This document shows positions 33,372 through 50,421 of a stretch of 63,673 bases of DNA, one piece after another. Below the pieces are notes generated by a model that had not been told where the DNA came from, did not search any database, and saw only the letters and a program-made list of their open reading frames with translations. The stretch is from a virus. The first letter of the stretch is position 1. Every line of letters begins with the position of its first letter. The position numbers were made by a program, and so were the translations under genes. The DNA lies in IMG/VR virus record IMGVR_UViG_3300045970_000154, positions 1-63,673 of that record. One strand, written 5' to 3'.

Positions 33372-33611
33372 TCACACAATTATTAACCACCGCTTCCCTT
33401 TTACGTTCCGATTATTCCAAGAAAAGGTTTCCCAACAAGAAGCTACCAATGATCCACTGAGCGATAGCACACGACCTGCCACAAATTGCAGAGTGCGGGA
33501 GCGTGGTTCAATCTCATTCCTATTGTGGTACGCGAATTCATAGCATACACCTACTGCCAACATGTTACGCAGTTCCGCTGTATCAACGTACGTTCCTACC
33601 AAGCTCTTCAT
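33372..33611 (-). CDS. Family A paralog
   Basis: 79 residues. First member of the repeated family: TAELRNMLAVGVCYEFAY matches the shared N-terminal block, ending KRWLIIV as a weak match to the shared C-terminal W-x-V. ATGA overlap with the serine recombinase stop. Confidence 0.7.
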   Translation of the reverse strand: MKSLVGTYVDTAELRNMLAVGVCYEFAYHNRNEIEPRSRTLQFVAGRVLSLSGSLVASCWETFSWNNRNVKGKRWLIIV

Positions 33612-34285
33612 AAACTCTCCGATCTGTTCAGCACATTGCGGACCTTGGTAGCGTCCCAGACTCCGAGCCTGCCACCAGCAGTCAACACCCTAGCCTTATT
33701 TAGTTCATCAGCAATGCTCTTCAAAGCATAACCTCTCAAGCAGTACTCCGCTATCAAAGGTTTCACCTTCTCGGCAAACTTATCCGCTGACTCTTTCCGT
33801 CGAGTATTGCATAACTCTCTACCTATTGAAGCGGATTCTTTCGACAGGTTCTTCGGATTACCCAGCACCACACCACGCGCTCTGGCAGCTTTCAGAGCAG
33901 CTAAGGTACGCTCAGAGATCATCTCTCGTTCGCGCTCTGCCAGAGCAGCGTAGATGTGGATGGTGAACTTGTCAGCCTGTGGCATGTTGCAGATCGTGAA
34001 CTCAAGTCCAGACTTCATCAGAGAGGTTATGAAGTGGACATCTCTCGATAGCCGGTCTAGCTTGGCTATCAGCAACTTAGCACCAGTCTGTCGGCACATA
34101 ATTATGGCATCATCGAGGAGTGGTCGGTTGTCATTGGTGCCCGACTCTACCTCTTCAAATGCCGTAACAAGCTCACCTGGATTGGATGCTATGTAGTTGG
34201 CGATGTCGTACTGTTGTGCCTCTAGTCCCAGACCTGAAACGCCTTGTCTGTTCGTAGATACCCTGATGTAGCTGACGTACTTCAT
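33608..34285 (-). CDS. Serine recombinase (resolvase/invertase family)
   Basis: 225 residues. YIRVSTNRQ with nucleophile Ser, LLIAKLDRLSRD and AALAEREREMISERTLAAL are the resolvase catalytic core and E helix. A C-terminal helix-turn-helix follows (YALKSIADELNKARV). Cuts and rejoins DNA at specific sites. It sits directly upstream of the first family A gene. Confidence 0.93.
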   Translation of the reverse strand: MKYVSYIRVSTNRQGVSGLGLEAQQYDIANYIASNPGELVTAFEEVESGTNDNRPLLDDAIIMCRQTGAKLLIAKLDRLSRDVHFITSLMKSGLEFTICNMPQADKFTIHIYAALAEREREMISERTLAALKAARARGVVLGNPKNLSKESASIGRELCNTRRKESADKFAEKVKPLIAEYCLRGYALKSIADELNKARVLTAGGRLGVWDATKVRNVLNRSESL

Positions 34286-34294
34286 GACTGCCTC

Positions 34295-34585
34295 CTACTG
34301 GTGGGTACAATCCGTTAGCACTTCACCAAACTTAGCCTCTCCTGTCCAGAATACTAATTCTGCGGAGGAGCAGGAAGTTATCAAAGCTTCCTCTTCTGCT
34401 CTTCTGCCAAGACATTCCAAGTTCCTCATGATCTCTTCCGGGTTGGTTCCGTTGAGGTCTACTCCCACGGTAAGGGTGTAGGTAAACATCTTCGTAGCCA
34501 GACACTTGCACTCAGCAGCCGGAGCTGCTCCTTCGACGGGGTGACCACAGATGGGACAGCCAATTCCTTTACACTCTGCACACAT
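34295..34585 (-). CDS. Zinc-finger protein
   Basis: 96 residues from the ATG at 34585 (AAAAGGAG). MCAECKGIGCPICGHP has two CxxC pairs; CKCLATKMFTYTLTVGVDL begins a beta-rich part. Function unknown. Confidence 0.65.
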   Translation of the reverse strand: MCAECKGIGCPICGHPVEGAAPAAECKCLATKMFTYTLTVGVDLNGTNPEEIMRNLECLGRRAEEEALITSCSSAELVFWTGEAKFGEVLTDCTHQ

Positions 34586-34612
34586 AGCATTCTCCTTTTG
34601 GTTAGGGTTGTG

Positions 34613-34628
34613 GTGCGACATGTCGCAC
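34613..34628. repeat. 16-bp palindrome
   Basis: Perfect copy, 27 nt before the zinc-finger gene start. Confidence 0.95.
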
Positions 34629-34633
34629 CTGGA

Positions 34634-34939
34634 TTAGTATTCCGAGGGATACAACACGGTCGTAGCTGACCTGTCAGATTCCGTGATGATCCATACCTTA
34701 ACATCAGTTCCGGCAACTTTAAGGAACTCTCTAGGCATAGAATAAGCAGACACCATTCTTTCTCCGTTAACCATAGCTTCATCGTTCATTTCTTTGTCGA
34801 AGGCATCAACGTCACCCCAATCGGCTGCAAGGTGGCGCTTAAGGCTCTTAGTAACAAAATCATGGAACCCGAAGATATCTATCATATCACTGCTGATGTT
34901 GAACGTGGTTACTATCTGTCCTGCTGCGAATCTTGACAT
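34634..34939 (-). CDS. Conserved phage/plasmid protein of unknown function
   Basis: 101 residues. FVTKSLKRHLAADWGDVDAFDKEMND and KVWIITESDRSATTVLYPSEY match a small protein family widespread on phages and plasmids (HLxGDWGD ... WIITE.DRS.TT.L.P). Function unknown. Confidence 0.75.
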   Translation of the reverse strand: MSRFAAGQIVTTFNISSDMIDIFGFHDFVTKSLKRHLAADWGDVDAFDKEMNDEAMVNGERMVSAYSMPREFLKVAGTDVKVWIITESDRSATTVLYPSEY

Positions 34940-34963
34940 GGTATCCTCCTGCCTTATGGCCTG

Positions 34964-35200
34964 TTAAGATATTCCCTTCCCTCTTACTACGTTCTGCTTA
35001 GCATGGTTAAGTCTTGCCTTGTAGTGGTGCAGGGTCTGTAGTTGTAGATTAAGTAGCTCCTCCGCATTCCTAATAAGCAATTCCACTCGCGCTATTTCTT
35101 CCCTCGCTCTCCACTTATCCCCAGACTTTTTAAGTAGCACGTACCTACAACTAATAGCACAAGCCCCTATGACTTCACAGTGTAGGTCTTTGCGTTTCAT
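34964..35200 (-). CDS. Hypothetical protein
   Basis: 78 residues, helical second half (REEIARVELLIRNAEELLN). SD weak. Not recognised. Confidence 0.55.
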   Translation of the reverse strand: MKRKDLHCEVIGACAISCRYVLLKKSGDKWRAREEIARVELLIRNAEELLNLQLQTLHHYKARLNHAKQNVVRGKGIS

Positions 35201-35212
35201 GGCTATACCGCC

Positions 35213-35422
35213 TCAAGAAAGTATGTTAAAGTGTGGGTCGTCTTCTCGGTAGTCGTTTGTTTTAATGTACTTAGTTAAGGTAGTTGGTCCTGCGTGGCGT
35301 TCAATTTTTCCACCTGGAAGTACCTCAAAGCCTGGGTATTGTTTCCAACAAAACGTCTTACATAGCCCAATAGCTATCATGTTTCTAAGCTCTCCAGAGG
35401 TTAGTCCTTTAGTTTTTATCAT
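35213..35422 (-). CDS. Family A paralog
   Basis: 69 residues from the ATG at 35422 (GGAGG eight bases upstream). MIKTKGLTSGELRNMIAIGLCKTF carries the shared block. First of an uninterrupted run of coupled paralogs. Confidence 0.75.
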   Translation of the reverse strand: MIKTKGLTSGELRNMIAIGLCKTFCWKQYPGFEVLPGGKIERHAGPTTLTKYIKTNDYREDDPHFNILS

Positions 35423-35634
35423 GACACTACCCTCCAGGTTGACGAATAAACTCCGCAAGTGGATTGCCTATACTCATCTAAGCTGTAAACCCTTGCTATG
35501 TTGCTATTGTAAGTGCGAATACCACCCTTGCAAAACTCCCGAATAGTGCAGCTTTCGAGCCGGAAGGTCTTACACAGACCAACAGCACCAAGATTGTAAA
35601 TCTCGTCTAGGGTAAGTCCATCAGTCTTCATCAT
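35419..35634 (-). CDS. Family A paralog
   Basis: 71 residues: GLTLDEIYNLGAVGLCKTFRLE, ending STWRVVS. Very close to the next copy, suggesting recent duplication. GGAGG upstream. Confidence 0.78.
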   Translation of the reverse strand: MMKTDGLTLDEIYNLGAVGLCKTFRLESCTIREFCKGGIRTYNSNIARVYSLDEYRQSTCGVYSSTWRVVS

Positions 35635-35837
35635 GACACTACCCTCCAGTCCGCCATATCAGCACACCACACAGCAACCTTGTAGTTAGTTAAGGAATCT
35701 GTATACCAATCTCCTACTGCTCTTACTCCTCCGTTGTGAAACTCTCGCAGGGTGCAGTCTTGGAACCTAAACGTCTTACATAGCCCAACTGCTCCGAGGT
35801 TAAAGATTTCGTCTAGGGTGTACCCTGTCTTTCTCAT
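35631..35837 (-). CDS. Family A paralog
   Basis: 68 residues: YTLDEIFNLGAVGLCKTFRFQD, ending DWRVVS. Sister of the gene at 35419-35634 (shared CTIREF/CTLREF and GGxR segments). Confidence 0.78.
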   Translation of the reverse strand: MRKTGYTLDEIFNLGAVGLCKTFRFQDCTLREFHNGGVRAVGDWYTDSLTNYKVAVWCADMADWRVVS

Positions 35838-36064
35838 ACGAACCCCCTACCCTCTAGCTTGTAGAGATGCTTATTTCTTCGTTCAGGATTACTGCGCTCG
35901 TACTCCTCAAAAGTTCTTTTGACACCTTCCCTATAATCAACCTTTATCTTTCCGTTAGGAAGTAAAACCCAGGCGTGTCCCATGTCGTTATACCTGAACT
36001 TTTCTGCAAACCCAACTGCTAGGCAGTTCTTAACTTCGTCCCAACTAAGCCCAACAGTTTTCAT
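35834..36064 (-). CDS. Family A paralog
   Basis: 76 residues from the ATG at 36064 (ATGA overlap). MKTVGLSWDEVKNCLAVGFAEKF, then WVLLPNGKI. The C-terminus lacks the usual W-x-V. Confidence 0.72.
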   Translation of the reverse strand: MKTVGLSWDEVKNCLAVGFAEKFRYNDMGHAWVLLPNGKIKVDYREGVKRTFEEYERSNPERRNKHLYKLEGRGFV

Positions 36065-36348
36065 AGCACACCCCACGATACAAAGTTAGGCTGGTGGGTA
36101 GAATAAGGAAAACATGTCAGGTACTCCTTAATTGTTTTAGGGTCGCAGGCACAACCAACTCCTATAAAGTGGACTACTCCATCCAATATCTCCAGGTGTG
36201 GGTCAGCTCTTCTACTGTTACCAGGAATGTCAGCAAAGGTGGACAACCCAACCGCACTTAAATTTGCCAGTTCTGGGAAAGTAAGATTACTTTTCATGGC
36301 CAGACCCTTGCAGATTTCTCTAGCTTCGATGTATGTGTGTGGTTTCAT
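36061..36348 (-). CDS. Family A-like protein with N-terminal extension
   Basis: 95 residues. MKPHTYIEAREICKGLA is extra sequence, followed by MKSNLTFPELANLSAVGLSTF, a normal family A start. ATG at 36348 behind GGGGG; an internal start at 36297 would give the standard length. The extension resembles the start of the neighbour at 36350-36613. Confidence 0.62.
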   Translation of the reverse strand: MKPHTYIEAREICKGLAMKSNLTFPELANLSAVGLSTFADIPGNSRRADPHLEILDGVVHFIGVGCACDPKTIKEYLTCFPYSTHQPNFVSWGVL

Positions 36349-36349
36349 G

Positions 36350-36613
36350 TTACCCCCAAGAAGACCATCTAGTATATTCACTGTCGTAGCGTATCTGCAC
36401 TACCCTGGCCGGATCAATAACTCTCCTACGCAGAAGGTTGAATGTAACCCCGTCCACATTCTCATACTCAGGAGTGCAGTCTCGTCCAGCAAACCTATCC
36501 GTGCCTGCTAGTATCCGATTAAAAGCCTCGCTAAGAAGTAGGCCGCGCGTCTGGTCTAGTTTATCGGAGCAGATTCTTTTGGCATGTTTAAGGGTAACAG
36601 GTGTGGTCCTCAT
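36350..36613 (-). CDS. Divergent family A-like protein
   Basis: 87 residues from the ATG at 36613 (GGAGA, ATGA overlap). MRTTPVTLKHAKRICSDKLDQ resembles the N-terminal extension of the gene at 36061-36348, and SEAFNRILAGTDRFAG is a distant match to the shared block. Confidence 0.55.
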   Translation of the reverse strand: MRTTPVTLKHAKRICSDKLDQTRGLLLSEAFNRILAGTDRFAGRDCTPEYENVDGVTFNLLRRRVIDPARVVQIRYDSEYTRWSSWG

Positions 36614-36828
36614 AAGGCTCTCCAGACTGGTTGTAATCCAGATATAGGACAACGGTGGAGTAATTCCGAGGAAGAGGCAGAGGAACTTCCTCCATCTGAC
36701 CTGATTAGTGTTCCGTCGCTAAGCATGTGGTAACTGTTATGATTCTCTGCGAACCTAAACTGAGTAACCAGCCCCACAGAAACGAGGTTGAGCATCTCAA
36801 CTAACGTAATGTTCTTTGTCTTTAGCAT
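36610..36828 (-). CDS. Family A paralog
   Basis: 72 residues from the ATG at 36828 (GGAG). MLKTKNITLVEMLNLVSVGL is identical at nearly every position to the next paralog, while the rest differs (Ser-rich centre). Confidence 0.75.
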   Translation of the reverse strand: MLKTKNITLVEMLNLVSVGLVTQFRFAENHNSYHMLSDGTLIRSDGGSSSASSSELLHRCPISGLQPVWRAL

Positions 36829-37043
36829 ACGGCGCTCCATAGAGGTGCTGGCCCTGATGTAGGACGATCGCGTAAAAAGTCATAGGCAGATAGGTGGCGC
36901 TTCTCTCTACAAGAGTCGAGAACGCCACCTTTGGAGTCTATCCAGTAAAAGTTACTGTTCGTTGAGTAGTGGAACTTTTCAACCAATCCCACTGACACAA
37001 GATTCAGCATCTCAACTAACGTAATGTCCTTTGTCTTTAGCAC
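36822..37043 (-). CDS. Family A paralog
   Basis: 73 residues; GTG start behind AGGAGG. MLKTKDITLVEMLNLVSVGL then variable sequence. Shares its 5' coding DNA with 36610-36828 and diverges after about 25 codons. Confidence 0.75.
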   Translation of the reverse strand: MLKTKDITLVEMLNLVSVGLVEKFHYSTNSNFYWIDSKGGVLDSCREKRHLSAYDFLRDRPTSGPAPLWSAVC

Positions 37044-37052
37044 GACAACCTC

Positions 37053-37871
37053 CTATTCATCTTGTAGTATCAGCATCGCCGCATTGACAAAGCCCTTCAA
37101 GTATTGTCCGTCACATGTAGAGCTGTCAGAAGACAAGTCCAGCAGCCTTTTAAGCACCTTCTGCTTTAATGGCAGACCCTTACCCTCTTTCTTTTTAATA
37201 ATCGTTCCTGGGGCATCCTCAGGCTCCTGAGTAGCCAGTACAACAGGTTCCGACGCTACTTCTACAGGTGGTGCGACATGTCGCACTGAACAAGCAGGGC
37301 AGAGCCACTTCTTACTGCCTTCTTTCCTTCGAGTAGCATTGGAATCTGCCGGTATGAAGGACTGCGCACGGCTTATCATGTCGTTCTCGCCAAGTGACAA
37401 CCGCTGGAAACCTTTTACGACACTTTCACACGCCTCTCCTGAGCAGGGAACCTCTCTCTCTATGTAGTAGCCTCGACCGTCTTGCTTGACCGGGAAGCCG
37501 CTCCATTCGGTGACCTGAACTTTACCTATTCTGGATTCTCTGGCACGCTCGATGAGGTGTTTCATCTGCACGCCGAACTCTTCCATTGTCAGATCGGAGC
37601 TTTCAGCGATGAACAGTTTCTTGAAGAAGTTGTACCGCCGAGTAGCGTCAGCAATCTCTTCGTGCTGAACGTCGCGGTACGTGTCGCCTACTAAACGGTA
37701 GGCCAGTAGTTTAGTCACTCCCTGGCCTGCCGTAAGCAGCACGTCTTGGATGTCGTCAGCGTTGACATCCGGTGGAACATCGAACATATACATGTTGCCT
37801 TGCTGGTCAATCAGTTTTCTTCCTAGATAACGTGGCATTTCTGTACCCTCCCATAGATTGAGTTGGTTCAT
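37053..37871 (-). CDS. Hypothetical protein with in-frame palindrome
   Basis: 272 residues; GGAGG upstream. A Cys pair (CSGEAC) and a CPAC segment flank the centre. A perfect 16-bp palindrome (37271-37286) encodes SVRHVAP in what looks like a linker after CPAC. The C-terminus is helical. Function unknown. Confidence 0.65.
   Translation of the reverse strand: MNQLNLWEGTEMPRYLGRKLIDQQGNMYMFDVPPDVNADDIQDVLLTAGQGVTKLLAYRLVGDTYRDVQHEEIADATRRYNFFKKLFIAESSDLTMEEFGVQMKHLIERARESRIGKVQVTEWSGFPVKQDGRGYYIEREVPCSGEACESVVKGFQRLSLGENDMISRAQSFIPADSNATRRKEGSKKWLCPACSVRHVAPPVEVASEPVVLATQEPEDAPGTIIKKKEGKGLPLKQKVLKRLLDLSSDSSTCDGQYLKGFVNAAMLILQDE
37271..37286. repeat. 16-bp palindrome inside a coding region
   Basis: Perfect copy, in frame within 37053-37871. 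Confidence 0.95.
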
Positions 37872-37896
37872 ACTCTACCTCCTACTTAGTGGAAGG

Positions 37897-38091
37897 TCAA
37901 GACTTAACGCATAAATAGTCTGGCTTTACCCGCTCGTAACCAAAAACTATCTGATGTTGAACGTCGAGCAACTCTTCATAGATGCGGTGAATTTCCTCTG
38001 CCTGATCCGGTGTACAGGGCAGGTGCGCTTCGATACTCTTGATAGTCGCAGACATACAACTCAGGGTTAGTTGCTGGCGATAAACAGTCAT
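37897..38091 (-). CDS. Hypothetical small protein
   Basis: 64 residues, helical (EEIHRIYEELLDVQHQIVFG). AGGAGG upstream. Not recognised. Confidence 0.6.
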   Translation of the reverse strand: MTVYRQQLTLSCMSATIKSIEAHLPCTPDQAEEIHRIYEELLDVQHQIVFGYERVKPDYLCVKS

Positions 38092-38102
38092 AATTACTCC
38101 TC

Positions 38103-38447
38103 CTAAAGTCCCGCTAGCGTTCCCTTAGCCTCAGCTATACAGGCTCGGAGCTTGTCGTTGTTGTTAAGAGCTGGATACATCTCACGGATGCGAGAGATCT
38201 TCTCCAGTGACCCGCTCAACTTGTTGTTCTCTTCTTCTTGCAGCATAGCGTCAGCGTTCCTGAACTCATCCAGGTGAGCCATCACTGAGGAGCCGTTGCA
38301 GACAGCCGTTACTGCGTCGAGTGAGTCCTTGAGTTTCTGACACTTGTAGCGACACACAGATAGTTCCGCACGAGTAGCTAATAATTCCTCATAAAGCTGG
38401 TCAAGCATCTGGTAGTTTCCGCTTAGGATGAACTCTCGTCTTTTCAT
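38103..38447 (-). CDS. Hypothetical coiled-coil protein
   Basis: 114 residues from the ATG at 38447 (AAGGAG). YEELLATRAELSVCRYKCQKL and later heptads predict coiled coil. Function unknown. Confidence 0.65.
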   Translation of the reverse strand: MKRREFILSGNYQMLDQLYEELLATRAELSVCRYKCQKLKDSLDAVTAVCNGSSVMAHLDEFRNADAMLQEEENNKLSGSLEKISRIREMYPALNNNDKLRACIAEAKGTLAGL

Positions 38448-38461
38448 GGCGTCTCCTTCGA

Positions 38462-38692
38462 TTAGTTCAAGGCTGTCCGACAATGCTTGCAAATCGTTGC
38501 TTCCAGCGGGACAAACTCTGTACATGCGGGGCATTTCTTACCGGACTGATTGCTTACCAGCAGAACACACGGTAGTGCCACGATGAACAGCATCCACCCG
38601 AAGAACCACCAGCCTACGAAGCTTCTACCTTTACTCTGTGCGATTGCGCCTGTGATGAGTCCAAGAATTGCTGCGAAAAATAGAATTTCCAT
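38462..38692 (-). CDS. Two-helix membrane protein with C-terminal zinc ribbon
   Basis: 76 residues: LFFAAILGLITGAIAQSKG and WWFFGWMLFIVALPCVLLV are membrane helices; KKCPACTEFVPLEATICKHC is a zinc ribbon. Similar small proteins occur in bacteria and phages. A role in envelope modification or superinfection control is possible. Confidence 0.75.
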   Translation of the reverse strand: MEILFFAAILGLITGAIAQSKGRSFVGWWFFGWMLFIVALPCVLLVSNQSGKKCPACTEFVPLEATICKHCRTALN

Positions 38693-38733
38693 TTGTGTTC
38701 TCCTTTTCTAGGTTGAGGGTTAGTATCGTTCCG

Positions 38734-38934: not shown

Positions 38935-38935
38935 C

Positions 38936-39034: not shown

Positions 39035-39036
39035 GA

Positions 39037-39255: not shown

Positions 39256-39308
39256 AATAGCCTCCTAGAGTATTTGTAAATTATAATAACATACATATAA
39301 GATTTGTC

Positions 39309-39337: not shown

Positions 39338-39371
39338 AGAACCTGTTCTGCCGGAAAAACCTAATAGGGAA

Positions 39372-39803
39372 TTATGCCCCAACTCGGTTAGGGAATGCAG
39401 CTTCGTATTGCTGTACCCAGCCAGGATGTCCTATCCCATCATCCACAACTCCTCCCCATGCTAGACCTGCGTAGGGGTTAACGTAATCCTGTATCCGTAC
39501 CCTCCTTGCTGGTACTGGTGTTGGTAGCACATAGCCGTAATCCTCCACAATGTTACTACCCCACGTAGGTTCCCTCCTACGCTTCCCAAAGCCAAAGTCC
39601 CTGCTGGCATTCCAGATCATCCTACTGTCTTCTTCCATCCACTTCCACTGTTCCCACATCTCTTTCATATCGCCACGGATACGACCATCAGTAGTCTGCA
39701 CCACTTGACCTTCCTCGTACCGATAGGCGACAGATTCGTTGTTTAGTTTTATCTCTCTTACCATGCCCACTGCCAGCATATTCAGTGCTTCACTAAGTTT
39801 CAT
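39372..39803 (-). CDS. Family A paralog with long C-terminal extension
   Basis: 143 residues, the longest member. MKLSEALNMLAVGMVREIKL is the shared block, followed by an Arg/Pro-rich tail (GFGKRRREPTWG, TPVPARRVRIQDYV) absent from others. ATGA overlap, GGAGG upstream. Confidence 0.7.
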   Translation of the reverse strand: MKLSEALNMLAVGMVREIKLNNESVAYRYEEGQVVQTTDGRIRGDMKEMWEQWKWMEEDSRMIWNASRDFGFGKRRREPTWGSNIVEDYGYVLPTPVPARRVRIQDYVNPYAGLAWGGVVDDGIGHPGWVQQYEAAFPNRVGA

Positions 39804-40045
39804 TTCACTACCCTCCAGCCCAGAGCACATCCCTGTAGCCACTCTTTCAGCATATATTCCGGGCTTCCCCTCCACTCATCAGAGTACTCAATATCTTCCT
39901 CTTTATCGTAGTAGCTCTCCCCAACAATCCTACCGCCTCGGTATATGTAGTTAAAAGATTCCTTCTGGAACTTGATCTTCTCGGCATACCCTACCACCAG
40001 CATATTCAGAGCAGCACCTACATGTAGGTTCTTTGTCTTTATCAC
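39800..40045 (-). CDS. Family A paralog
   Basis: 81 residues; GTG start behind AAGGAG. KTKNLHVGAALNMLVVGYAEKI, ending GWRVVK. Confidence 0.76.
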   Translation of the reverse strand: MIKTKNLHVGAALNMLVVGYAEKIKFQKESFNYIYRGGRIVGESYYDKEEDIEYSDEWRGSPEYMLKEWLQGCALGWRVVK

Positions 40046-40347
40046 TCGTAGCTCCTTACAGTGTTAGAGAATACAACTTGCCACAGTTTTATACTGCTGG
40101 TATAAACCCAATCTTCAATGAATTCTTCCGGTGACCCTTGTGGTTCATCGTCGGTGCTTTCATCTATCCAGTCTCCGTAGTCGTCTTCGTACTGATTTTC
40201 ATCTTCGTGGCCTTGTTTAATTATCTCCTTCGTGTACTTATCATAGTGGTAGTAGTCTCCCTCATACGTATGGTGTATTTCGCAGGTCAGCCCCAAGACC
40301 AGAGCATTTACCGCAGCAGCTACGTCCATGTTCTGTATTCTTGTCAT
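40042..40347 (-). CDS. Family A paralog, acidic insert
   Basis: 101 residues from the ATG at 40347 (GGGAG). MTRIQNMDVAAAVNALVLGL, then an Asp/Glu/Tyr-rich stretch (EDENQYEDDYGDW), then LWQVVF near the end. Confidence 0.72.
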   Translation of the reverse strand: MTRIQNMDVAAAVNALVLGLTCEIHHTYEGDYYHYDKYTKEIIKQGHEDENQYEDDYGDWIDESTDDEPQGSPEEFIEDWVYTSSIKLWQVVFSNTVRSYE

Positions 40348-40529: not shown

Positions 40530-40775
40530 CTATTCAATAAGCTCGTAGGTAAACTCCCAGGCGTTTAGGTTGTGTGGCTGGCGCATAGATGCGGCATAAC
40601 TACCCAAAGCCTGCCCGTACACTCCGCACTGAACCCTTAATTCCAGTCCTCCACCTCCTGATACTTCCAGCCAGGGATACCCACTGCCTCGGGAAAACTT
40701 ACGGCATAATCCTACACTAGCAAGATTCATAATCTCGTTGAAGTCCCTGGTTGTACCTACGTTGCCTGACATCAC
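40530..40775 (-). CDS. Family A paralog
   Basis: 81 residues. FNEIMNLASVGLCRKFSRG, then a Gly-rich centre, ending AWEFTYELIE. GTG/ATG start pair overlapping the upstream gene; SD weak. Confidence 0.68.
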   Translation of the reverse strand: MMSGNVGTTRDFNEIMNLASVGLCRKFSRGSGYPWLEVSGGGGLELRVQCGVYGQALGSYAASMRQPHNLNAWEFTYELIE

Positions 40776-41103: not shown

Positions 41104-41850
41104 CTAAAAAGTCACTTCGAGCATCTTCCTCGTCTCGATATCGTCTTTAAACTCTGGCAACATGAAGTCCTCAAACGTCCCCGTCTTTGTGTTGAAACAG
41201 TACCAGCCGGGAGCATCCACACAGACGTGAACGGTAATATTCTTAAACATCTGCTTACCGACAGGTATGATCTTAGCCTTAGGTCCGTGGTTGTGGCCGA
41301 AGACTTGGTTGAACCTTCGGTCAACCTTCTCCTTCCTATAGTCCAGCCAGAAGATGCCACCAAACTGATGCCACCCTCCCCTACAACTGCCTATGTTAAA
41401 GATAGGTGGAAGTGTCTCAGGTACGGACGGTAAACTAACATACCAGAACAACTCAGAGTTTAGGTACTCATCGACATCATGCAGGGTATCAAAGTCTTTT
41501 ATCAGCCACGGATGCGCCCCAGCGTGGGTCAGAAGATAATCATCACGAACCAGTGAGGCTTGAAGTTTGTACTTGTGTTGCTCCATCAGCCCAACAAACT
41601 TCTCATTGTAGCGCATTCCGCTGCATTTCATTTCCCTGTGTGTATTGTTCAGGTACTGGAGGTCATGGTTGCCCATGAGCAGTTCAGCCCCTGACTCGAA
41701 GGCAAGGGTAGCAGCACGCAGCATCTCAGAATCTGTAGCATGGTAGCTGTCGAAGAAGTCGCCCAAGATGCCGTGCTCAACATCAGGTCGATAGTTGAGG
41801 AAGGCTTCGAGCTTCGGGTAGTTTCCGTGTATGTCGCTTATTACAATCAT
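41104..41850 (-). CDS. Calcineurin-like serine/threonine phosphatase-type protein
   Basis: 248 residues. SDIHGNYPKLEAFL, LGDFFDSYHAT, MGNHDLQYL, LTHAGAHPWL and VFGHNHGP are the PPP-type motifs in order. Lambda phosphatase-like size. May dephosphorylate host proteins or nucleotides. Confidence 0.88.
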   Translation of the reverse strand: MIVISDIHGNYPKLEAFLNYRPDVEHGILGDFFDSYHATDSEMLRAATLAFESGAELLMGNHDLQYLNNTHREMKCSGMRYNEKFVGLMEQHKYKLQASLVRDDYLLTHAGAHPWLIKDFDTLHDVDEYLNSELFWYVSLPSVPETLPPIFNIGSCRGGWHQFGGIFWLDYRKEKVDRRFNQVFGHNHGPKAKIIPVGKQMFKNITVHVCVDAPGWYCFNTKTGTFEDFMLPEFKDDIETRKMLEVTF

Positions 41851-42065
41851 TAAGACTCCAGTATGTAGAAGGTGGTTTCACCGACTTTCCAGCACGAAAA
41901 ATAGTTACTAACGGATTCTCTATTTGAAACTTCGCTTCTAGCCATCAGCGTGGGGTTACGATAATCAATCAACCAGGGGTCGCACGCTGTCGCTTTAAAC
42001 TTCCGGCACAGACCTACTGCGATGAGGTTCTGCATCACTTCAGGATTTCTAGTTGAGGTTATCAT
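41850..42065 (-). CDS. Family A paralog
   Basis: 71 residues: NPEVMQNLIAVGLCRKFKAT, then CDPWLIDYR. Close sister of the gene at 42062-42274 (shared CDPWxID, SVSNYF/SVSHYF). Confidence 0.74.
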   Translation of the reverse strand: MITSTRNPEVMQNLIAVGLCRKFKATACDPWLIDYRNPTLMARSEVSNRESVSNYFSCWKVGETTFYILES

Positions 42066-42274
42066 TCTGTACTCACTATGTGGAAGGTAGTGTCGTCTTC
42101 GCCCCAGGATCTGAAGTAATGACTAACCGAGTTACGTTCAGATTTACGCCTCATGGTTTCTCGGTCTCTCCTGTCAATAATCCAGGGGTCGCAAATGTTA
42201 GCACGGAAAGAAGTGCATAACCCCACTGCAATGAGATTCTTAAGGATTGCCGGACTTCTCGTCTGGGTTATCAT
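42062..42274 (-). CDS. Family A paralog
   Basis: 70 residues from the ATG at 42274 (AGGAGG). SPAILKNLIAVGLCTSF, then CDPWIIDRR. A palindrome is 11 nt upstream. Confidence 0.74.
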   Translation of the reverse strand: MITQTRSPAILKNLIAVGLCTSFRANICDPWIIDRRDRETMRRKSERNSVSHYFRSWGEDDTTFHIVSTE

Positions 42275-42731: not shown

Positions 42732-42968
42732 CTAGAAAACAATTTTCCAGTTGCGGTCTTCGTCACGTAGTGCCGGTGCTCCACCTTTTACGGCTTCTTC
42801 GTAGGTCTGCGAATAGGTAAGACCTCTTGAGTTGTCATAGTCAATGTACATACGCTCACCTTTAAGAGCAAAATACACGCTACCTTGAGTATGGTAATTG
42901 AACCCCTTAGACCCAAGGACTAGGTGCAGGTTAGCGGCTTCTTTGAAGTTCAGGTCTGTAGTTTTCAT
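42732..42968 (-). CDS. Family A paralog
   Basis: 78 residues: TTDLNFKEAANLHLVLGSKGF, ending NWKIVF. Belongs to a subgroup of four with VLG/VMGGKS after the shared helix. Confidence 0.74.
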   Translation of the reverse strand: MKTTDLNFKEAANLHLVLGSKGFNYHTQGSVYFALKGERMYIDYDNSRGLTYSQTYEEAVKGGAPALRDEDRNWKIVF

Positions 42969-43180
42969 ACTAAGACTCTCCAGCGTCGGTAGCTATCTTT
43001 GGTAATGTCGTGGCACCGCTTGCATATTTCTGCCAAGGTTCCACAGTTTTCACTACCAGAATACAAGCACCCATTGTTTATCTTATACCTGGAGTCATAC
43101 GGTCCGTGCAACATCTTAGAACCGGGTAGGACGCTGTGGATGTTACACGCCTCAGCAAAGGTCAAGTCCGTAAGTTTCAC
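42965..43180 (-). CDS. Family A paralog
   Basis: 71 residues; GTG start (GGAGG). KLTDLTFAEACNIHSVLPGSKM, ending RRWRVLV. Confidence 0.74.
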   Translation of the reverse strand: MKLTDLTFAEACNIHSVLPGSKMLHGPYDSRYKINNGCLYSGSENCGTLAEICKRCHDITKDSYRRWRVLV

Positions 43181-43410
43181 AGCTCTACCTCCCACTCTCT
43201 GTAGGTGTCGTTCATGCAGCCTCTATTGTTCTCGATAACATCAAGCGTATTTCCATGAGTATACCCGACATCACCATACCTAGTTAGGTCACAAAATTTA
43301 CCGTTAGATAATATGTACTTATAGGCGTGTCCCCCAAACCTCAGGCTCTTCCCACCCATAACCAAGAACACATTTACCGCCTCCAAGTAGGTCAGGCCAG
43401 TGGTTTTCAC
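43177..43410 (-). CDS. Family A paralog
   Basis: 77 residues; GTG start. GLTYLEAVNVFLVMGGKSL, ending REWEVEL. Nearly identical at both ends to 43407-43649. Confidence 0.77.
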   Translation of the reverse strand: MKTTGLTYLEAVNVFLVMGGKSLRFGGHAYKYILSNGKFCDLTRYGDVGYTHGNTLDVIENNRGCMNDTYREWEVEL

Positions 43411-43649
43411 AGCTCAACCTCCCACTTACGATAGGTGTCTTTTGTAAGTCCGGGATTGTTGCGAAGGACGGTTAATATGTCACCATGTACGTACCCATCT
43501 GCACTACCGCCATTACTTCCGAAAGAGCAGAAGTTTCCGTCGCGCACCGTAAATCTGGAATACGGGTACTTAGAGTCTACTATGCTCTTCCCTCCCATAA
43601 CCAAGAACACATTTATCGCTTCCAGATAGGTCAAGCCAGATCTCTTCAT
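43407..43649 (-). CDS. Family A paralog, RNA motif in leader
   Basis: 80 residues: SGLTYLEAINVFLVMGGKSI, ending RKWEVEL. The leader holds a copy of the CTAGGCC RNA motif (43661-43722), 12 nt from the start. Confidence 0.77.
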   Translation of the reverse strand: MKRSGLTYLEAINVFLVMGGKSIVDSKYPYSRFTVRDGNFCSFGSNGGSADGYVHGDILTVLRNNPGLTKDTYRKWEVEL

Positions 43650-43743: not shown

Positions 43744-43748
43744 GGTTG

Positions 43749-44506: not shown

Positions 44507-45702
44507 ACGAACACCTCATTCTCAGTATCCATCGTAGGAATCATCAGAGGCGTAACATTTCCCGCCCCGATGATCTCGTCCCAGACCTTAGTGAAGCAAT
44601 CATCAGAGCCAAATCCGTGGTTATAGTAGTAGACATAGGATGTTTCCAAGTCTTCCAGCAGAGCCAACAGGTCGCCGCACTCAGGCTCACCAAAGATTAT
44701 CGGAAGCAGAAGGTCAAGGTTCATAGCCTTGACCAGAGCCGATTCCACTTCCGACTTAAGGCCCCGGAGCTTCATGATGGCGATGCAGTAGCTGCTTATG
44801 TCTTTGACCGGCAACTTGCTTGCTTCCAGCTTGTCCTGATTGATAGTCCCACCAGCATTGACCAAGGGGATTACCTTGGCCGGGAGGTTGGTCGTAGCAG
44901 TTGTCTTCTTGGTGTAACCATCATCAGCCCAATCATCCCACTGATTGCCGTACATTCCGCCGCCCCAATACTTCGAGGAGAAGCCATGACCACGCTTATA
45001 GTTCGGTTTAGCTAGTGGAAAGAGCGCACCGACCGGATCTTGAAGCATGTCGATTACACGGTTGATGGTGAGGTACATCTCGTCAATGTGCAGGACCTCA
45101 GACGCTGAGTGCTGCCGGTAGTAGCCGATGGACAAGTTGACGGACGGAATCAGCAGCTCGTCAGACAGGTCAGATATGTCAGAGTAGGAGCCGTGACTCT
45201 CTTTGAAGCCGAAGCACTCTACGTACTGCTTGCACTCCTTGGGCAATGAGAGGGAGTAGAACACGTAGTCGTTACAGCCCTGTCGGTCGAGTTCCAGGAA
45301 CATGTGGATGTGGTCACTGACCAGTGCCTTATCCGACAACAGTTTGCTGACTCCCCTGCCCCCGCTTTCTTCGTAGTTGGTGAAGATTACTGTCGGAAGT
45401 GGGATGCCATTTTTAACGCAATGCTCGACAACTTCGAGGATACCGAACACTCCGGCCCTATCGTCGGCACCAAGCACGCCGGTAGTGTTCCAAATCAGGT
45501 TTCTGTACTGAACAATGTTGACCGCATCAGTCCTTCTGACGGTATCCATGTGGGCAACCAGGGCCATCGTATTAGGACCAGTGGCCACGATGTAGTTATC
45601 GTGGTCGGTGACGATTTCCGGGTAGTGTTTCAGAAGCTCACCTTTGAGGTACTCGATGAGTGCCTTATCCTCCATCTCCAAGACTGCTAGTAACTTTTCC
45701 AC
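44503..45702 (-). CDS. M20/M28-type metallopeptidase-like protein
   Basis: 399 residues; GTG start at 45702 with AAAGGAG. LVAHMDTVRR, GVLGADDRAGVF and FTNYEESGGRG are the zinc-ligand and catalytic motifs of peptidase-T/M20 proteins. A Gly/Trp/Tyr-rich insert (KYWGGGMYGNQWDDW) interrupts the C-terminal half. Possible role in amino-acid scavenging or host protein cleavage. Confidence 0.82.
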   Translation of the reverse strand: MEKLLAVLEMEDKALIEYLKGELLKHYPEIVTDHDNYIVATGPNTMALVAHMDTVRRTDAVNIVQYRNLIWNTTGVLGADDRAGVFGILEVVEHCVKNGIPLPTVIFTNYEESGGRGVSKLLSDKALVSDHIHMFLELDRQGCNDYVFYSLSLPKECKQYVECFGFKESHGSYSDISDLSDELLIPSVNLSIGYYRQHSASEVLHIDEMYLTINRVIDMLQDPVGALFPLAKPNYKRGHGFSSKYWGGGMYGNQWDDWADDGYTKKTTATTNLPAKVIPLVNAGGTINQDKLEASKLPVKDISSYCIAIMKLRGLKSEVESALVKAMNLDLLLPIIFGEPECGDLLALLEDLETSYVYYYNHGFGSDDCFTKVWDEIIGAGNVTPLMIPTMDTENEVFV

Positions 45703-45726
45703 GATTTCTCCTTTATAGGTGGAGCG

Positions 45727-45742
45727 GTGCGACATGTCGCAC
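45727..45742. repeat. 16-bp palindrome, extended arms
   Basis: Perfect core; flanks extend the inverted repeat to GAGCG...CGCTC (26 bp). 24 nt before the peptidase start. Confidence 0.95.
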
Positions 45743-45773
45743 CGCTCGTTAGCGTAGCAGGTTGGGTTGATGG

Positions 45774-47993
45774 CTAGAGGATACTCGCCGCCAACTGGAT
45801 GCCATACTCGTCAGCTACAACGAGGTCGGCTGAGAACCCCTGCACAGTTGCAGAGATGGTAGGCATCTTCTTACGTGCCACCTTCGGCTTAGCGACAGGA
45901 GCTGCTACCCGCAAGTCCATGTCAGCAATCACCACGAAGCGGGTCTTGCCGCTGCCGGAACAGTGGTAGAAGAACTTCCCGCCCTGAGTAATAACCTCAG
46001 CAACCGTCACCGTGGAGCCGCTATCGAACGTATGGACAGACGAGTCCGCTACGATTCGGACCGTATCGCCCACCTCGAAGTAGGGAATCAGACCAGCTTC
46101 CCTATCCGCGTCCAGTTTGACCCTACGCTTGTGCTCGACAACCTGAACACGAGTCTCGTGGAAGGTCAGGAACTCCTTGTGGTAGGTAGCCTGTTGCTTG
46201 TCAGACACCCGAATAGTGTCAGTCAGGCACCCCGAACAAGTCACCTTTGCTCCGTAGAGCAGCAGATCCTTGATGTGGAAGGTCTCAGAACAGTCACCAC
46301 AAACATCGTAGTTGACCGAGCAAGGCAGGCACATGGAGTGCTTACCAACGGTTTCCAGCTCGGTGCAATACTTGCCACAGTCGGGGCAGTGCTGATAGTT
46401 GGTGATGCAACCATCACAGACCCAACCAGACTTGCCCCGCTCCTTGACGATCTCGTGGATGCCAGAAGCGAAGTGCTTGCGGCAGTCGGCACACTCGTGA
46501 ACGCTCATCAGGTCAGCATGAGCCTTGCACCACGTCGCGTCGATGTTCTCAACCGTGACGAAGGTGGTATCGGTAGAGCGGTGATGAACCCCGCAACCGT
46601 CGCAGTAGGTGTACCGAGAGGTAGAACAGCCGTGGCAAACACACTTGCCATTGTCCACATGAACTCCCTCCTCTCCAGTGTCCCTACGAACCTTGATATG
46701 GCACTCCTGGCACTCCCAGAAGATCTCGTTGAAGCAATCCCGGCAGAAGTATTCGTCTCCTACAGAATGCTCTCTACCACTGGAGATGATTTCCTCGCAC
46801 TCTGAGCAGCAATACTCTCTCGCCTTCTCCGCGCAACAGATGCAGCAGCCAGCAGAGGTGTAGTTGGTCTCGTCACCGCAGCGGAGACAGATAGCCTCAC
46901 CGAACTCCAGAGGGGTAGTAAGACCGTTCGACGCCAGATTGTCTGGAGACGAGTGAAGAGACTTCGGATAGGAGATGTCAAACGCATAGTTGTCGAGGTA
47001 GACTACGCCCCGAGACTTGACGTTATCCAGGCCCCGAGCGTGGTGCATAGAATCATACCCACCAGCCGGGATACCGTGCTTAGCAGCAAGCAGCGGTTCC
47101 ATGTAGCCACGGATGATAGAACGCTCACGGTTCGTGAAGGTTCCGTAGGACTTGGGCTGGATGATGTAGGGGCCGTTGGAATAAATCCAACTGCGCCCCT
47201 CTTTGTAATCAGGACGGGCAATGCTGCTCTTGTAGGCCAGCAGGGTTATGTCGTCCAGCAGGTACGCAATGTTCCCGTTGAAGTGGCAACCCGAAGTCGA
47301 GTAGCAGCTCGTGTAGCTGCTGTACTTGCCGCCAGCCGATGAGGTGAAAAAGTCAAAGAGGGTGGTCGATAAAGTAACCATCGAGTCCTTCTTGAGGCTG
47401 ACCAGCTCCCCGAACTGCGGCACGATAGCAGCCGGATTCTTGACCTTCAGGCGCTTGACAAACTCGTCAATGATGGCCTGATCCATCGTCGGCATCTGCT
47501 TAGCCAGCCAGCGGGTGATCTTGACAGACTGCTTGGCACCTTCCGGCATGAGCATGCCTGAGGTAAACTCAATGCCGGTGGTTTCGACGGTGTACTCGTT
47601 GTGGCAGATGTACCGAGTTTCGCCAGACTCCTTGTTACGAATCTTCCACTCGTAGCCGTCCTGTGGGTAGGCTTGGATGATGTCGCAGCGGGTTCCCTCT
47701 CTCCAGCCGGAACGGTTAATCTTGGCATTGAGTATGATGATAGAACCTACCGCAGCCGGTACAGCCTGCGGAACCCACCCCGGAATCTTATCGAATAGGG
47801 GAGCAACCCACGGATTGAGAGCATGGAACTCATGCTCTTCCTGCGTTACGGGGAGAGAGATCTTGCCCTCATCACCCAAGTTGTACAGCTCACGGAGGCC
47901 AGCTTTAGCCTCCAGCGACTGTTCCATTACCTGCTGAAGATACTGCACCGGGATGCCCTGGCCTGCGAGGAACCTGCGAGTTTTCTTGAACAT
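45774..47993 (-). CDS. Large Cys-rich multi-zinc-finger protein
   Basis: 739 residues. The N-terminal 360 residues include SCYSTSGCHFNGNIAYLLDD. Residues about 370-610 hold more than ten CxxC pairs (CLRCGD, CCICC, CCSECEE, CRDC, CQEC, CHGC, CDGCG, CADC, CPDCG, CGDC and others), a LIM/RING-like string. A beta-rich segment (VGDTVRIVADSSVHTF) follows. Lies amid the family A arrays. Could be a scaffold or a ubiquitin-ligase-like mimic; unknown. Confidence 0.8.
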   Translation of the reverse strand: MFKKTRRFLAGQGIPVQYLQQVMEQSLEAKAGLRELYNLGDEGKISLPVTQEEHEFHALNPWVAPLFDKIPGWVPQAVPAAVGSIIILNAKINRSGWREGTRCDIIQAYPQDGYEWKIRNKESGETRYICHNEYTVETTGIEFTSGMLMPEGAKQSVKITRWLAKQMPTMDQAIIDEFVKRLKVKNPAAIVPQFGELVSLKKDSMVTLSTTLFDFFTSSAGGKYSSYTSCYSTSGCHFNGNIAYLLDDITLLAYKSSIARPDYKEGRSWIYSNGPYIIQPKSYGTFTNRERSIIRGYMEPLLAAKHGIPAGGYDSMHHARGLDNVKSRGVVYLDNYAFDISYPKSLHSSPDNLASNGLTTPLEFGEAICLRCGDETNYTSAGCCICCAEKAREYCCSECEEIISSGREHSVGDEYFCRDCFNEIFWECQECHIKVRRDTGEEGVHVDNGKCVCHGCSTSRYTYCDGCGVHHRSTDTTFVTVENIDATWCKAHADLMSVHECADCRKHFASGIHEIVKERGKSGWVCDGCITNYQHCPDCGKYCTELETVGKHSMCLPCSVNYDVCGDCSETFHIKDLLLYGAKVTCSGCLTDTIRVSDKQQATYHKEFLTFHETRVQVVEHKRRVKLDADREAGLIPYFEVGDTVRIVADSSVHTFDSGSTVTVAEVITQGGKFFYHCSGSGKTRFVVIADMDLRVAAPVAKPKVARKKMPTISATVQGFSADLVVADEYGIQLAASIL

Positions 47994-48017
47994 TTGTTAT
48001 CTCCCTTTTGGTTGTTG

Positions 48018-48033
48018 GTGCGACATGTCGCAC
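48018..48033. repeat. 16-bp palindrome
   Basis: Perfect copy, 24 nt before the zinc-finger gene. Next to it is TCACAACTGCTTA, the promoter-upstream element, without a recognisable -10 box. Confidence 0.95.
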
Positions 48034-48064
48034 TGGTTAAGTAAGCAGTTGTGAGTAGTTGAAG

Positions 48065-48292
48065 TTACAAGTAGGCGTTCCATCTGACATGCCATGTTTT
48101 AATGGCGTATTTAGGCGTCACAGTCTCTGCATCGAATTCCCAAACCTCGTCCCATCCTAAAGGTTTAACAGGCAATAGCTTTCCTCTATGAAATACATAG
48201 TGGTACGCATCATAATTATACTTAATACGCTTCGCTACTCCCGTAACAATCATGTTTACGGCTTCTTCTGTGGACAGGTCGGTTAGTTTCAT
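48065..48292 (-). CDS. Family A paralog
   Basis: 75 residues from the ATG at 48292. MKLTDLSTEEAVNMIVTGVAKRI, then YHYVFHRGKLLP, ending TWHVRWNAYL. Last of a block of ten. Confidence 0.77.
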   Translation of the reverse strand: MKLTDLSTEEAVNMIVTGVAKRIKYNYDAYHYVFHRGKLLPVKPLGWDEVWEFDAETVTPKYAIKTWHVRWNAYL

Positions 48293-48513
48293 AGTAGGTT
48301 CCACCTGTACGAGCTAGATGTCCAGAAGCCAGTGAACGCTGCGTGTAGCTCTTCAACATGTTCCGTAGTAGGATAGTCACCACGCCGGTACCTTATCTGA
48401 CCATTCTGGACCACATAGACTCCGCTAGTGTCACCAACATAGGAAAACTCAGTTGCTACCCCACATACTAGAGCGTTATACAGCTCCTGGTTGGTAAGAT
48501 TTTTAGTATTCAT
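48289..48513 (-). CDS. Family A paralog
   Basis: 74 residues from the ATG at 48513 (GGGAG). MNTKNLTNQELYNALVCGVATEF, ending YRWNLL. Confidence 0.78.
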   Translation of the reverse strand: MNTKNLTNQELYNALVCGVATEFSYVGDTSGVYVVQNGQIRYRRGDYPTTEHVEELHAAFTGFWTSSSYRWNLL

Positions 48514-48758
48514 ATCTTCTCCCAAGGTAGACGGTTAGACACTACCCAGTCTCGGGAACTTATTGAGTAGCTTAGCAGAGACTTCAGGGGCGCATCTCTT
48601 AGAGTATAATCCGGGTCGTGCTTGGAACAACTCTGCGTACCTCCTGTAGCCTCATCATTACAGTACCACCGAGTCCGAGTACCCCACGATAGCCACGGAA
48701 ACATTCCGCACATGACTAAGTTGATCGCTTCAGCTCCAGAGATATTTTCTATCTTCAT
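48510..48758 (-). CDS. Family A paralog
   Basis: 82 residues from the ATG at 48758 (GGGGG). MKIENISGAEAINLVMCGMF, then WLSWGTRTRWY, ending RDWVVSNRLPWEKI. Sister of the next gene. Confidence 0.77.
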   Translation of the reverse strand: MKIENISGAEAINLVMCGMFPWLSWGTRTRWYCNDEATGGTQSCSKHDPDYTLRDAPLKSLLSYSISSRDWVVSNRLPWEKI

Positions 48759-48760
48759 AA

Positions 48761-49006
48761 CTACCCCCACGACAAATCATCTGCGACTTCCCAGTTATGC
48801 CTACCCCCACCTCGCGTTATTAACTCAGCAAAGGGATAGCCCTGTTCCTTGCTGTCAGGGTAGATATACTTATCAGTCTCAACGTGATCGCCGTTCTCCC
48901 TGTCCAGGCCAAACCAGTAATCCTTAGTCCCCCAGCTAGCCCACTTAAACATCCCGCAGGCAACCATGTTTACGGCTTCTTCCGCAGTAAGGTTTTTCGT
49001 CTTCAT
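48761..49006 (-). CDS. Family A paralog
   Basis: 81 residues: MKTKNLTAEEAVNMVACGMFK, then WASWGTKDYWF, ending NWEVADDLSWG. A clear reference member. Confidence 0.8.
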   Translation of the reverse strand: MKTKNLTAEEAVNMVACGMFKWASWGTKDYWFGLDRENGDHVETDKYIYPDSKEQGYPFAELITRGGGRHNWEVADDLSWG

Positions 49007-49275
49007 TCCTTAACCTCCAGCAGGTTCCATCGGTAGTCTGGGTTAGTCAGAGTCCACCTACGGGCGAAAATGAGCGGTAACATCTTGCACTCGTTGCCTC
49101 TATACCCGCCCTCACTAAAAATGTCCTGGTAGTAAATATCCCCGTCGCGGATAAAATATTGAGTGGTATGTTGATCCTGCATGGGTATATCTGGCTGAAA
49201 GAAAGTGCACCTATCAGCTACCCCACACACAAGCGCATTTATCATTTCCGCCGTTGTCAGATTAGTGGTTTTCAT
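49003..49275 (-). CDS. Family A paralog
   Basis: 90 residues: MKTTNLTTAEMINALVCGVAD, then FIRDGDIYY, with RRWTLTN and YRWNLL near the end. Confidence 0.78.
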   Translation of the reverse strand: MKTTNLTTAEMINALVCGVADRCTFFQPDIPMQDQHTTQYFIRDGDIYYQDIFSEGGYRGNECKMLPLIFARRWTLTNPDYRWNLLEVKE

Positions 49276-49277
49276 AG

Positions 49278-49520
49278 CTACCCCTTCTTTTTATAAACCT
49301 TCCATCTGGCAGTAGGATAGTGTCTGTGGTCGTGAGCGTTTTTGGTGGTGATGTTGGCGTACCTCATGCAAAACTTATCATCGCAGGAGGTGTATACCGA
49401 TAAGTTTCCGTCACTACTAGCGAAGTAGTAAGTAGCTATTCCAATCATCTGGACATAATCACAAACCCCAACTTCGAGCATGTTCATGGCTTCTGCTGTT
49501 CCCATCCAACTATCGGTCAT
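49278..49520 (-). CDS. Family A paralog
   Basis: 80 residues; MTDSWMGTAEAMNMLEVGVCDYV, ending RWKVYKKKG. Pairs with the next gene (shared TTKN/TTTK segment and C-terminal W-x-V-Y). Confidence 0.74.
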   Translation of the reverse strand: MTDSWMGTAEAMNMLEVGVCDYVQMIGIATYYFASSDGNLSVYTSCDDKFCMRYANITTKNAHDHRHYPTARWKVYKKKG

Positions 49521-49731
49521 ACACAATCCAATCCCGGTCAGGGTACTTTGAGGGCAAGTTGGCAGTTTTTGTGGTGGTATTGTTGGTGTGTCTGATCTCT
49601 CCAGTTTCCTTCAATCTCCACACCATAGTCTTGCCTTTCCCCTCAAACGAGCAGTACATCCTATTCCCAGGGAAAGTAAGGTGCTTCGCAAGACCAACCT
49701 CGATCATGTTCATCGCTACTTCCGTAGTCAT
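49510..49731 (-). CDS. Family A paralog
   Basis: 73 residues from the ATG at 49731 (AAGGAGG). MTTEVAMNMIEVGLAKHLTF, ending DWIVYDR. Palindrome 13 nt upstream. Confidence 0.76.
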   Translation of the reverse strand: MTTEVAMNMIEVGLAKHLTFPGNRMYCSFEGKGKTMVWRLKETGEIRHTNNTTTKTANLPSKYPDRDWIVYDR

Positions 49732-49744
49732 TATAGCCTCCTTG

Positions 49745-49760
49745 GTGCGACATGTCGCAC
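49745..49760. repeat. 16-bp palindrome
   Basis: Perfect copy, 13 nt before a family A start and directly after the previous family A stop. Confidence 0.95.
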
Positions 49761-49967
49761 TTACCAGCCACTCCACCTTGGGTACATCCCGCTCCAAACA
49801 TCAAAGGCTTTCTCCAGCGTTCCATAACTATTCCCATCTCGGCTTGCACGGAGGTGCTTCCCGTCCCAGGTGTAGTGCTGTTCCTCTGTTCCGTACCGGA
49901 CTGACGTTATCACTCCACACTTGAGGGCATTACACGCCGCCTCTGAGGACATATTTTTGAATTTCAT
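49761..49967 (-). CDS. Family A paralog
   Basis: 68 residues from the ATG at 49967. MKFKNMSSEAACNALKCGVITSV, then HYTWDGKHL. ATGA overlap with the upstream paralog. Confidence 0.75.
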   Translation of the reverse strand: MKFKNMSSEAACNALKCGVITSVRYGTEEQHYTWDGKHLRASRDGNSYGTLEKAFDVWSGMYPRWSGW

Positions 49968-50182
49968 ATGGAGCCGCTCCATTTGTTTCCGTACCTGTCT
50001 GTTAGTTCCGACCACACCTTCAGCATGTACTTAAGGCTTCCTCGATCCTGCGCTCTATCCATATCCCACACGCAGCCGTCTTTTAAGCTGTAGAACCTAT
50101 CCTCCGTGTCCCAACAAATCTCCCTAACTACCCCAGTGGCAAGAGCATTGAGCGCCTCAGCCGTTGACATATGCTTGAACAT
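49964..50182 (-). CDS. Family A paralog
   Basis: 72 residues from the ATG at 50182 (AGAGGTG). MFKHMSTAEALNALATGVVREI, then FYSLKDGCVWD; ends NKWSGSI. Confidence 0.76.
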   Translation of the reverse strand: MFKHMSTAEALNALATGVVREICWDTEDRFYSLKDGCVWDMDRAQDRGSLKYMLKVWSELTDRYGNKWSGSI

Positions 50183-50187
50183 GATAG

Positions 50188-50421
50188 TCACCTCTTATCT
50201 GGATCGTCCGAGACGTGCCACTCGGCACCAGCCCAATCTGAAAAGTCCTTCTTGGTCATGAAATAGGTGCCGGTGCATACTGTAGGGTTACTGTATGGGT
50301 GGAACGTCAGCACTCCCTTTCGCACCTGACAGTAATGTGCCTCATCCCAGTAGGTCAGCTTATCTATCAACCCACAGGCCAGCATGTTGAAACCCTCTTC
50401 GGTTGTTAGAGTTTTGGCCAT
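50188..50421 (-). CDS. Family A paralog
   Basis: 77 residues: MAKTLTTEEGFNMLACGLIDKL, then HYCQVRKGVLTF, ending EWHVSDDPDKR. First gene of the ten-gene block in transcription order. Confidence 0.76.
   Translation of the reverse strand: MAKTLTTEEGFNMLACGLIDKLTYWDEAHYCQVRKGVLTFHPYSNPTVCTGTYFMTKKDFSDWAGAEWHVSDDPDKR

Follow-up and report, generated by a model that had tools for sequence, protein, structure and literature searches.

A tandem array of 28 diverged small paralogs with a predicted Tad2 fold in one phage genome

Tad2 proteins, which are phage-encoded, assemble as homotetramers and hold glycocyclic ADP-ribose (gcADPR) in two pockets between protomers; these pockets are lined by the β1-β2 and β3-β4 loops, strand β4 and helix α3 (PMC12043709). 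Cyclic dinucleotides are also bound by Tad2, at sites other than the gcADPR pockets, which provides a precedent for a change of ligand within this fold (PMC12043709), and the binding of His-ADPR by ModTad2, as given in the title of PDB entry 9eib, is a further one. Descriptions of phage sponges have until now concerned single genes that act against one or a few signals. Here we describe family A, an array of 28 small paralogous genes whose products are predicted to adopt the Tad2 fold, in the viral record IMGVR_UViG_3300045970_000154 (63,673 nt; hereafter the window, meaning the whole stretch of DNA that was analysed).

The family A array

An iterated profile hidden Markov model (HMM) search of the 766 open reading frames (ORFs) of at least 40 aa in the window recovered 28 paralogs, all on the minus strand, with ends at 33372-50421 and E-values from 1.3e-24 to 1.6e-8. 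Below them was a clean gap, with the best real non-member ORF at E 0.25 and the best shuffled or reversed ORFs at E ~0.08-0.2 over 21 null sets. Exactly the same 28 loci were recovered by a translated search with a 27-row profile, including the one member that this profile lacked (39606-39809, at 6e-10). The array is real and consists of 28 paralogs. A preliminary description of this DNA had counted about 29; the additional one was probably the frame at 36350-36652 (EAFNRILAG), which we rejected because it scored 5.1 bits compared with up to 9.1 for its own shuffles. The blocks lie where they had been described, at 35.2-37.0, 39.4-40.8, 41.9-43.6 and 48.1-50.4 kb, together with a lone gene at 33.4 kb. 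The members, all assigned by the profile HMM, are as follows.

33372-33611, minus: family A, 79 aa, isolated, adjoins a serine recombinase (E 1e-10)
35213-35422, minus: family A (E 1e-15)
35419-35634, minus: family A, tandem pair with 35631-35837 (~51% identical)
35631-35837, minus: family A
35834-36076, minus: family A, domain start near 36067
36061-36381, minus: family A with N-terminal extension, domain from ~36303 (E 1.6e-8; translated search 7e-16)
36610-36840, minus: family A, tandem pair with 36822-37043
36822-37043, minus: family A
39372-39875, minus: family A with C-terminal extension of ~75 aa (E 1e-24; out-of-sample 6e-10)
39800-40045, minus: family A
40042-40347, minus: family A with acidic insertion, 101 aa, isoelectric point (pI) 4.2
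40530-40775, minus: family A
41850-42065, minus: family A, tandem pair with 42062-42274 (~54% identical), F replaces the last W
42062-42274, minus: family A
42732-42968, minus: family A
42965-43180, minus: family A
43177-43410, minus: family A, tandem pair with 43407-43649 (~53% identical)
43407-43649, minus: family A, structure model 2
48065-48292, minus: family A, structure model 1
48289-48513, minus: family A
48510-48758, minus: family A, tandem pair with 48761-49006
48761-49006, minus: family A
49003-49275, minus: family A
49278-49520, minus: family A
49510-49731, minus: family A
49761-49967, minus: family A
49964-50191, minus: family A
50188-50421, minus: family A, first of the 48-50 kb block

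The N-terminal block and C-terminal tryptophan by which the family had originally been recognised were both seen again, the helix-1 asparagine being invariant in 28 of 28 members (x-x-x-N-x4-G/M/L/P) and a C-terminal aromatic residue (W, F or Y) near-invariant. The ATGA/GTGA coupling noted at the same time was also found, as 4-nt stop/start overlaps at 14 of the 27 junctions between consecutive members, most of which have a Shine-Dalgarno-like sequence within the last stretch of the preceding gene. In several cases the codons for the C-terminal tryptophan and the residue after it (TGG AGG or TGG GAG) can themselves be read as the Shine-Dalgarno sequence of the next gene; since members that close a block, such as those at 48065 and 42732, have the tryptophan as well, its retention does not serve this purpose alone.

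Similarity between members mirrors their order (mean neighbour score 75.8, compared with 39.9 for random order and a maximum of 61.7 among 20,000 permutations, none of which scored as high), and the conclusion that family A therefore arose by tandem duplication is strongly supported. Five adjacent pairs are 35-54% identical, and in these recent tandem pairs the ratio of nonsynonymous to synonymous differences per site (pN/pS) was 0.29 in the first 25 codons versus 0.63 in the rest (0 of 5,000 permutations), the N-terminal helix having been kept and the remainder changed. Across the family the paralogs have diverged to 15-30% identity and vary in length, charge and appended segments, with pI values ranging from 4.2 to 9.5, and all 28 frames remain open.

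When relatives of the 28 members were sought, no convincing match was found in Pfam, PHROGs, NCBIfam or PADLOC (isolated matches, to one member each and mutually inconsistent, were set aside as chance), none in a sequence search of the PDB, and none at E<=10 when the consensus was compared by tblastn with 50,697 phages. No confirmed relative emerged when viral contigs were scanned for sequence patterns taken from a single member and from three subgroup alignments, or when genome contigs were scanned with the pattern of one subgroup; these scans require conserved short stretches and a tblastn E<=1e-3, and very divergent relatives would escape them. In the collections searched, family A is thus a sequence orphan.

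The three nearest relatives of the window, IMGVR_UViG_3300024999_000057, 3300025012_000046 and 3300039098_000023, whose polymerases are 47-50% identical to that of the window, were gone through in full; family A was absent from them, and their paralog clusters comprised three members at most. In 48 further records whose polymerases are related, the profile gave a single 25-residue match (E 0.006) inside a 400-aa frame, which was rejected as chance. As far as could be seen, and within the genomes compared, the expansion appears specific to the lineage of the window; the lack of family A in relatives at this polymerase identity is what would be expected of a recently expanded accessory arsenal.

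Predicted fold and relation to Tad2

Two members were modelled with AlphaFold2. Model 1 (48065-48292; 27-row alignment) had a mean predicted local distance difference test score (pLDDT) of 90.3 and a predicted template modelling score (pTM) of 0.78, and model 2 (43407-43649; alignment restricted to 17 paralogs from the 33-43.6 kb region) had a pLDDT of 84.4 and a pTM of 0.75. The alignment behind model 2 held no locus from the 48-50 kb block, from which the model 1 query was taken, while that of model 1 included the 17 paralogs used for model 2. Both models show a helix, four strands, a helix and a strand (α-β4-α-β), and the two modelled members thus do not differ in predicted fold.

When model 1 was compared with the PDB using VIA-align, the first five rows were all Tad2 (9eib, Z 6.7; 8wje, 6.0; 8v3e, 5.9; 8sme and 8smf, 5.5 each) and the next, unrelated row had a Z of 3.5; the superposition on 9eib gave 2.7 Å over 60 of 75 residues. 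For model 2 the first four rows were Tad2, with Z from 6.0 to 5.2, and the next row scored 4.3. Over both models the Tad2 rows had Z 5.2-6.7 and root-mean-square deviations of 2.7-3.3 Å over 59-64 residues. AcrIIA7 (9kzr), 8kbi and 8wjd were not in these lists, which speaks neither way. In a viral structure library the second match of model 2 was a 'Thoeris anti-defense 2-like' protein (probability 0.82 but E 0.07). Judged from the models, family A is likely to have the Tad2 fold.

The likeness to Tad2 proposed earlier is therefore supported as regards predicted fold, with Tad2 entries leading for both models, but does not extend to sequence membership of DUF2829 (PF11195), the characteristic motifs being absent. 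The PF11195 profile matched nothing in the window at E<=10, while the SPO1 Tad2 positive control scored 6e-25, and hmmscan found PF11195 in none of the 28 members. A Tad2 HMM run over the window ORFs ranked one family A member first, at E 0.66, and in the alignment of the two profiles the helix, the glycine and the final W-x-V fall in the same order and in the expected register. The lack of a PF11195 match and the invariant asparagine of its own, taken with the models, argue that family A either stands apart as a Tad2-fold family of its own or represents a branch that diverged past sequence recognition.

A possible divergent Tad2-like protein was also seen in another genome: a conserved 92-aa frame (L143; G031:63834-64028) that ends in ADDWEVA, has relatives in five to six other T5-sized phages of ~100-120 kb, and matches the Tad2 profile weakly, below the cut-off (E 0.003-0.004).

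Possible functions of family A

The best explanation, resting on the modelled fold, is that the family A proteins are Tad2-fold binding proteins, a set peculiar to this lineage whose ligands have diversified. Within one phage lineage, one ancestral small Tad2-fold gene would have gone through about 28 tandem duplications, with the conserved N-terminal helix and its invariant asparagine, together with the last strand and its initial tryptophan, serving as the scaffold. Variation would fall on the loops, the middle strands and the second helix, whose Tad2 counterparts line the ligand pockets of the homotetramer; the two thirds of family A that match these pocket parts vary in sequence and length, and a constant scaffold with varying binding parts over 28 copies is how a diversified binding repertoire is expected to look. 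The paralogs would act as binding proteins of Tad2 design, produced together by translational coupling, each sequestering a different host molecule, most likely a nucleotide or NAD-derived anti-phage alarm signal, and would jointly disarm many defence systems or signal variants. This scheme, in which we infer oligomerisation, ligand binding, a different ligand for each copy and early co-expression, would give family A what is probably an anti-defence role. Since the nearest fold is that of a phage sponge, sequestration is the best-supported mechanism, and we hold with middling confidence that different members would sequester host signals. The anatomy of the family and its divergence pattern fit the earlier idea of sponges with differing ligands. 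That the 28 proteins are one phage's Tad2-fold repertoire, each tuned to a different host immune signal, some of them unknown, can be proposed tentatively.

Several observations weigh against this explanation. The GWNG-type motif of the β1-β2 loop and the DxxAxDW motif before the last strand occur in all 18 sequences of our Tad2 comparison set (17 phage sequences and ModTad2), compared with 1 of 28 and 0 of 28 family A members, respectively, with only the W of the latter kept; the known ligand contacts are therefore not conserved. The full-length hhalign score between family A and Tad2, 13.2, ranked about 11th of 200 column shuffles, which is not significant and no better than roughly the 95th percentile. 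Foldseek alone found no significant PDB or viral match for the models (E ~1), and Z values of 5-7 can reflect an arrangement common to 75-residue domains. No defence or anti-defence gene that would link the array to a particular system was identified adjoining it. Moreover, synonymous sites in the five tandem pairs are near saturation (pS 0.7), so the contrast in constraint is shown and positive selection is unproven, and the faster divergence outside the helix may reflect relaxed constraint rather than selection for new ligands.

The likelihoods of the alternatives overlap in part with that of the sequestration reading and are not meant to sum to one with it. The Tad2-fold proteins might instead bind host proteins, as host-takeover or anti-restriction/anti-CRISPR inhibitors with one target per copy: among the matches of a phmmer search from SPO1 Tad2 are two entries of its sequence family deposited as CRISPR-Cas inhibitors, 8kbi ('Inhibitor of Type II CRISPR-Cas system') and 9kzr (AcrIIA7), and both the loss of the Tad2 ligand motifs and the spread of pI from 4.2 to 9.5 would suit varied protein surfaces. 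However, by sequence none of the 28 members is similar to an anti-CRISPR or any other inhibitor, and no result favours protein over small-molecule targets, and we consider this alternative possible but doubtful.

It is unlikely that the fold match is accidental, with family A being a small alpha/beta fold of other function to which Tad2 just happens to be the closest among the small phage structures of the PDB. The Z values, under 8 over 60-64 residues, the Foldseek E of ~1 and an hhalign score inside the upper tail of the shuffles would all agree with such an accident; set against them, for both models several Tad2 entries lead the list and are separated by a gap from the fold that follows, and the shared landmarks follow the same order in the profile alignment. 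Least probable is a dosage or backup array, in which the copies would do the same job for phage physiology with a weakly constrained middle, since the pN/pS of 0.63 in the variable part, being below 1, is compatible with relaxed purifying selection but dosage copies are expected to be alike, not to share 15-30% identity, with differing length, charge and appended segments and 28 open frames.

Genome context and comparison with described systems

The replication genes of the window, on the minus strand, encode an SbcC-like protein, a PolA-type polymerase, a primase, PhoH and a DnaB-like helicase; the polymerase is <31% identical to anything in the phage collection. The window ends in a 23-bp tandem repeat (10.2 copies, 63439-63673), which is also found at the start of the 37 kb viral contig IMGVR_UViG_3300045970_000147 (127 identical bases, positions 1-127). 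This common repeat makes it very likely that window and contig belong to a single genome of ~101 kb that was broken there. The companion contig carries structural genes, and no family A member was found in it. Its ORF at 4331-5416 (G002:4331-5416) resembles a tyrosine integrase and would point to a capacity for a temperate life cycle.

A perfect palindrome, TGCGACATGTCGCA (mostly GTGCGACATGTCGCAC), occurs in 24 copies in the window, from 8625 to 59180 (for example at 8625, 26515, 42287 and 49746), often directly upstream of a minus-strand Shine-Dalgarno sequence and sometimes within genes. The companion contig has four further copies, and the three relatives have none. The palindrome may serve a phage-wide regulon, either as an operator or as a hairpin in the mRNA.

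Other features were noted on the minus strand of the window. Three tandem paralogs unrelated to family A lie at 53023-53814 (68, 63 and 67 aa, starting MSVYINNAVLEV..., MINLQNAWVSK... and MRYLFQASFF...). A 739-aa cysteine-rich protein with repeated CxxC and no Pfam match is encoded at 45774-47993, between two family A blocks. An RtcB-type RNA ligase at 31762-32880 shares ~51% identity with its counterparts in enterobacterial phages, among them Salmonella phage Arash and Cronobacter phage vB_CsaP_009; these are the closest known relatives for any window gene tested.

Neither the Tad2 fold nor the sponge idea is new. In the collections and open-access papers searched, the latter including a minority of the key sponge papers, no 28-copy, sequence-orphan array of this fold in a single phage was encountered. 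If the proposed reading is true, this one genome would hold a natural binding library of 28 diverged Tad2-fold proteins, and testing these against defence signals could bring new alarm molecules to light and show how a small fold switches ligand. Sponge-fold proteins can also escape detection by sequence profiles and yet be found via structure.

Tad2 (for example SPO1 gp34.65 and ModTad2) provides the nearest solved structures to both models, and resembles family A in being phage-encoded, in size (70-90 aa), in the order of helix, strands, helix and strand, in an N-terminal helix of the E-A-x-x-x-L-x-x-G kind and in a final D/x-W-x-V strand. It differs in that the invariant helix-1 asparagine belongs to family A and is not kept in Tad2, and in copy number, with 28 copies in this phage compared with 393 places over 388 phage records matching SPO1 Tad2. 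AcrIIA7 and SptTad2 (8kbi, 9kzr, 8wjd), from phages or prophages, belong to the Tad2 sequence family, one fold with different names and roles, and retain the Tad2 sequence motifs that family A lacks. The Tad1, Acb2 and Acb4 sponges share the proposed mode, sequestration of nucleotide immune signals (PMC12043709, PMC11722364), but their structures are unrelated according to published descriptions, and no structural or sequence match between them and family A was seen. Small tandem DUF2829 repeats, such as P60/P61 of phage SpaA1, are likewise adjacent Tad2-family genes in one phage, overlapping by 1 base; these consist of two or three copies, each recognisable as DUF2829, unlike family A.

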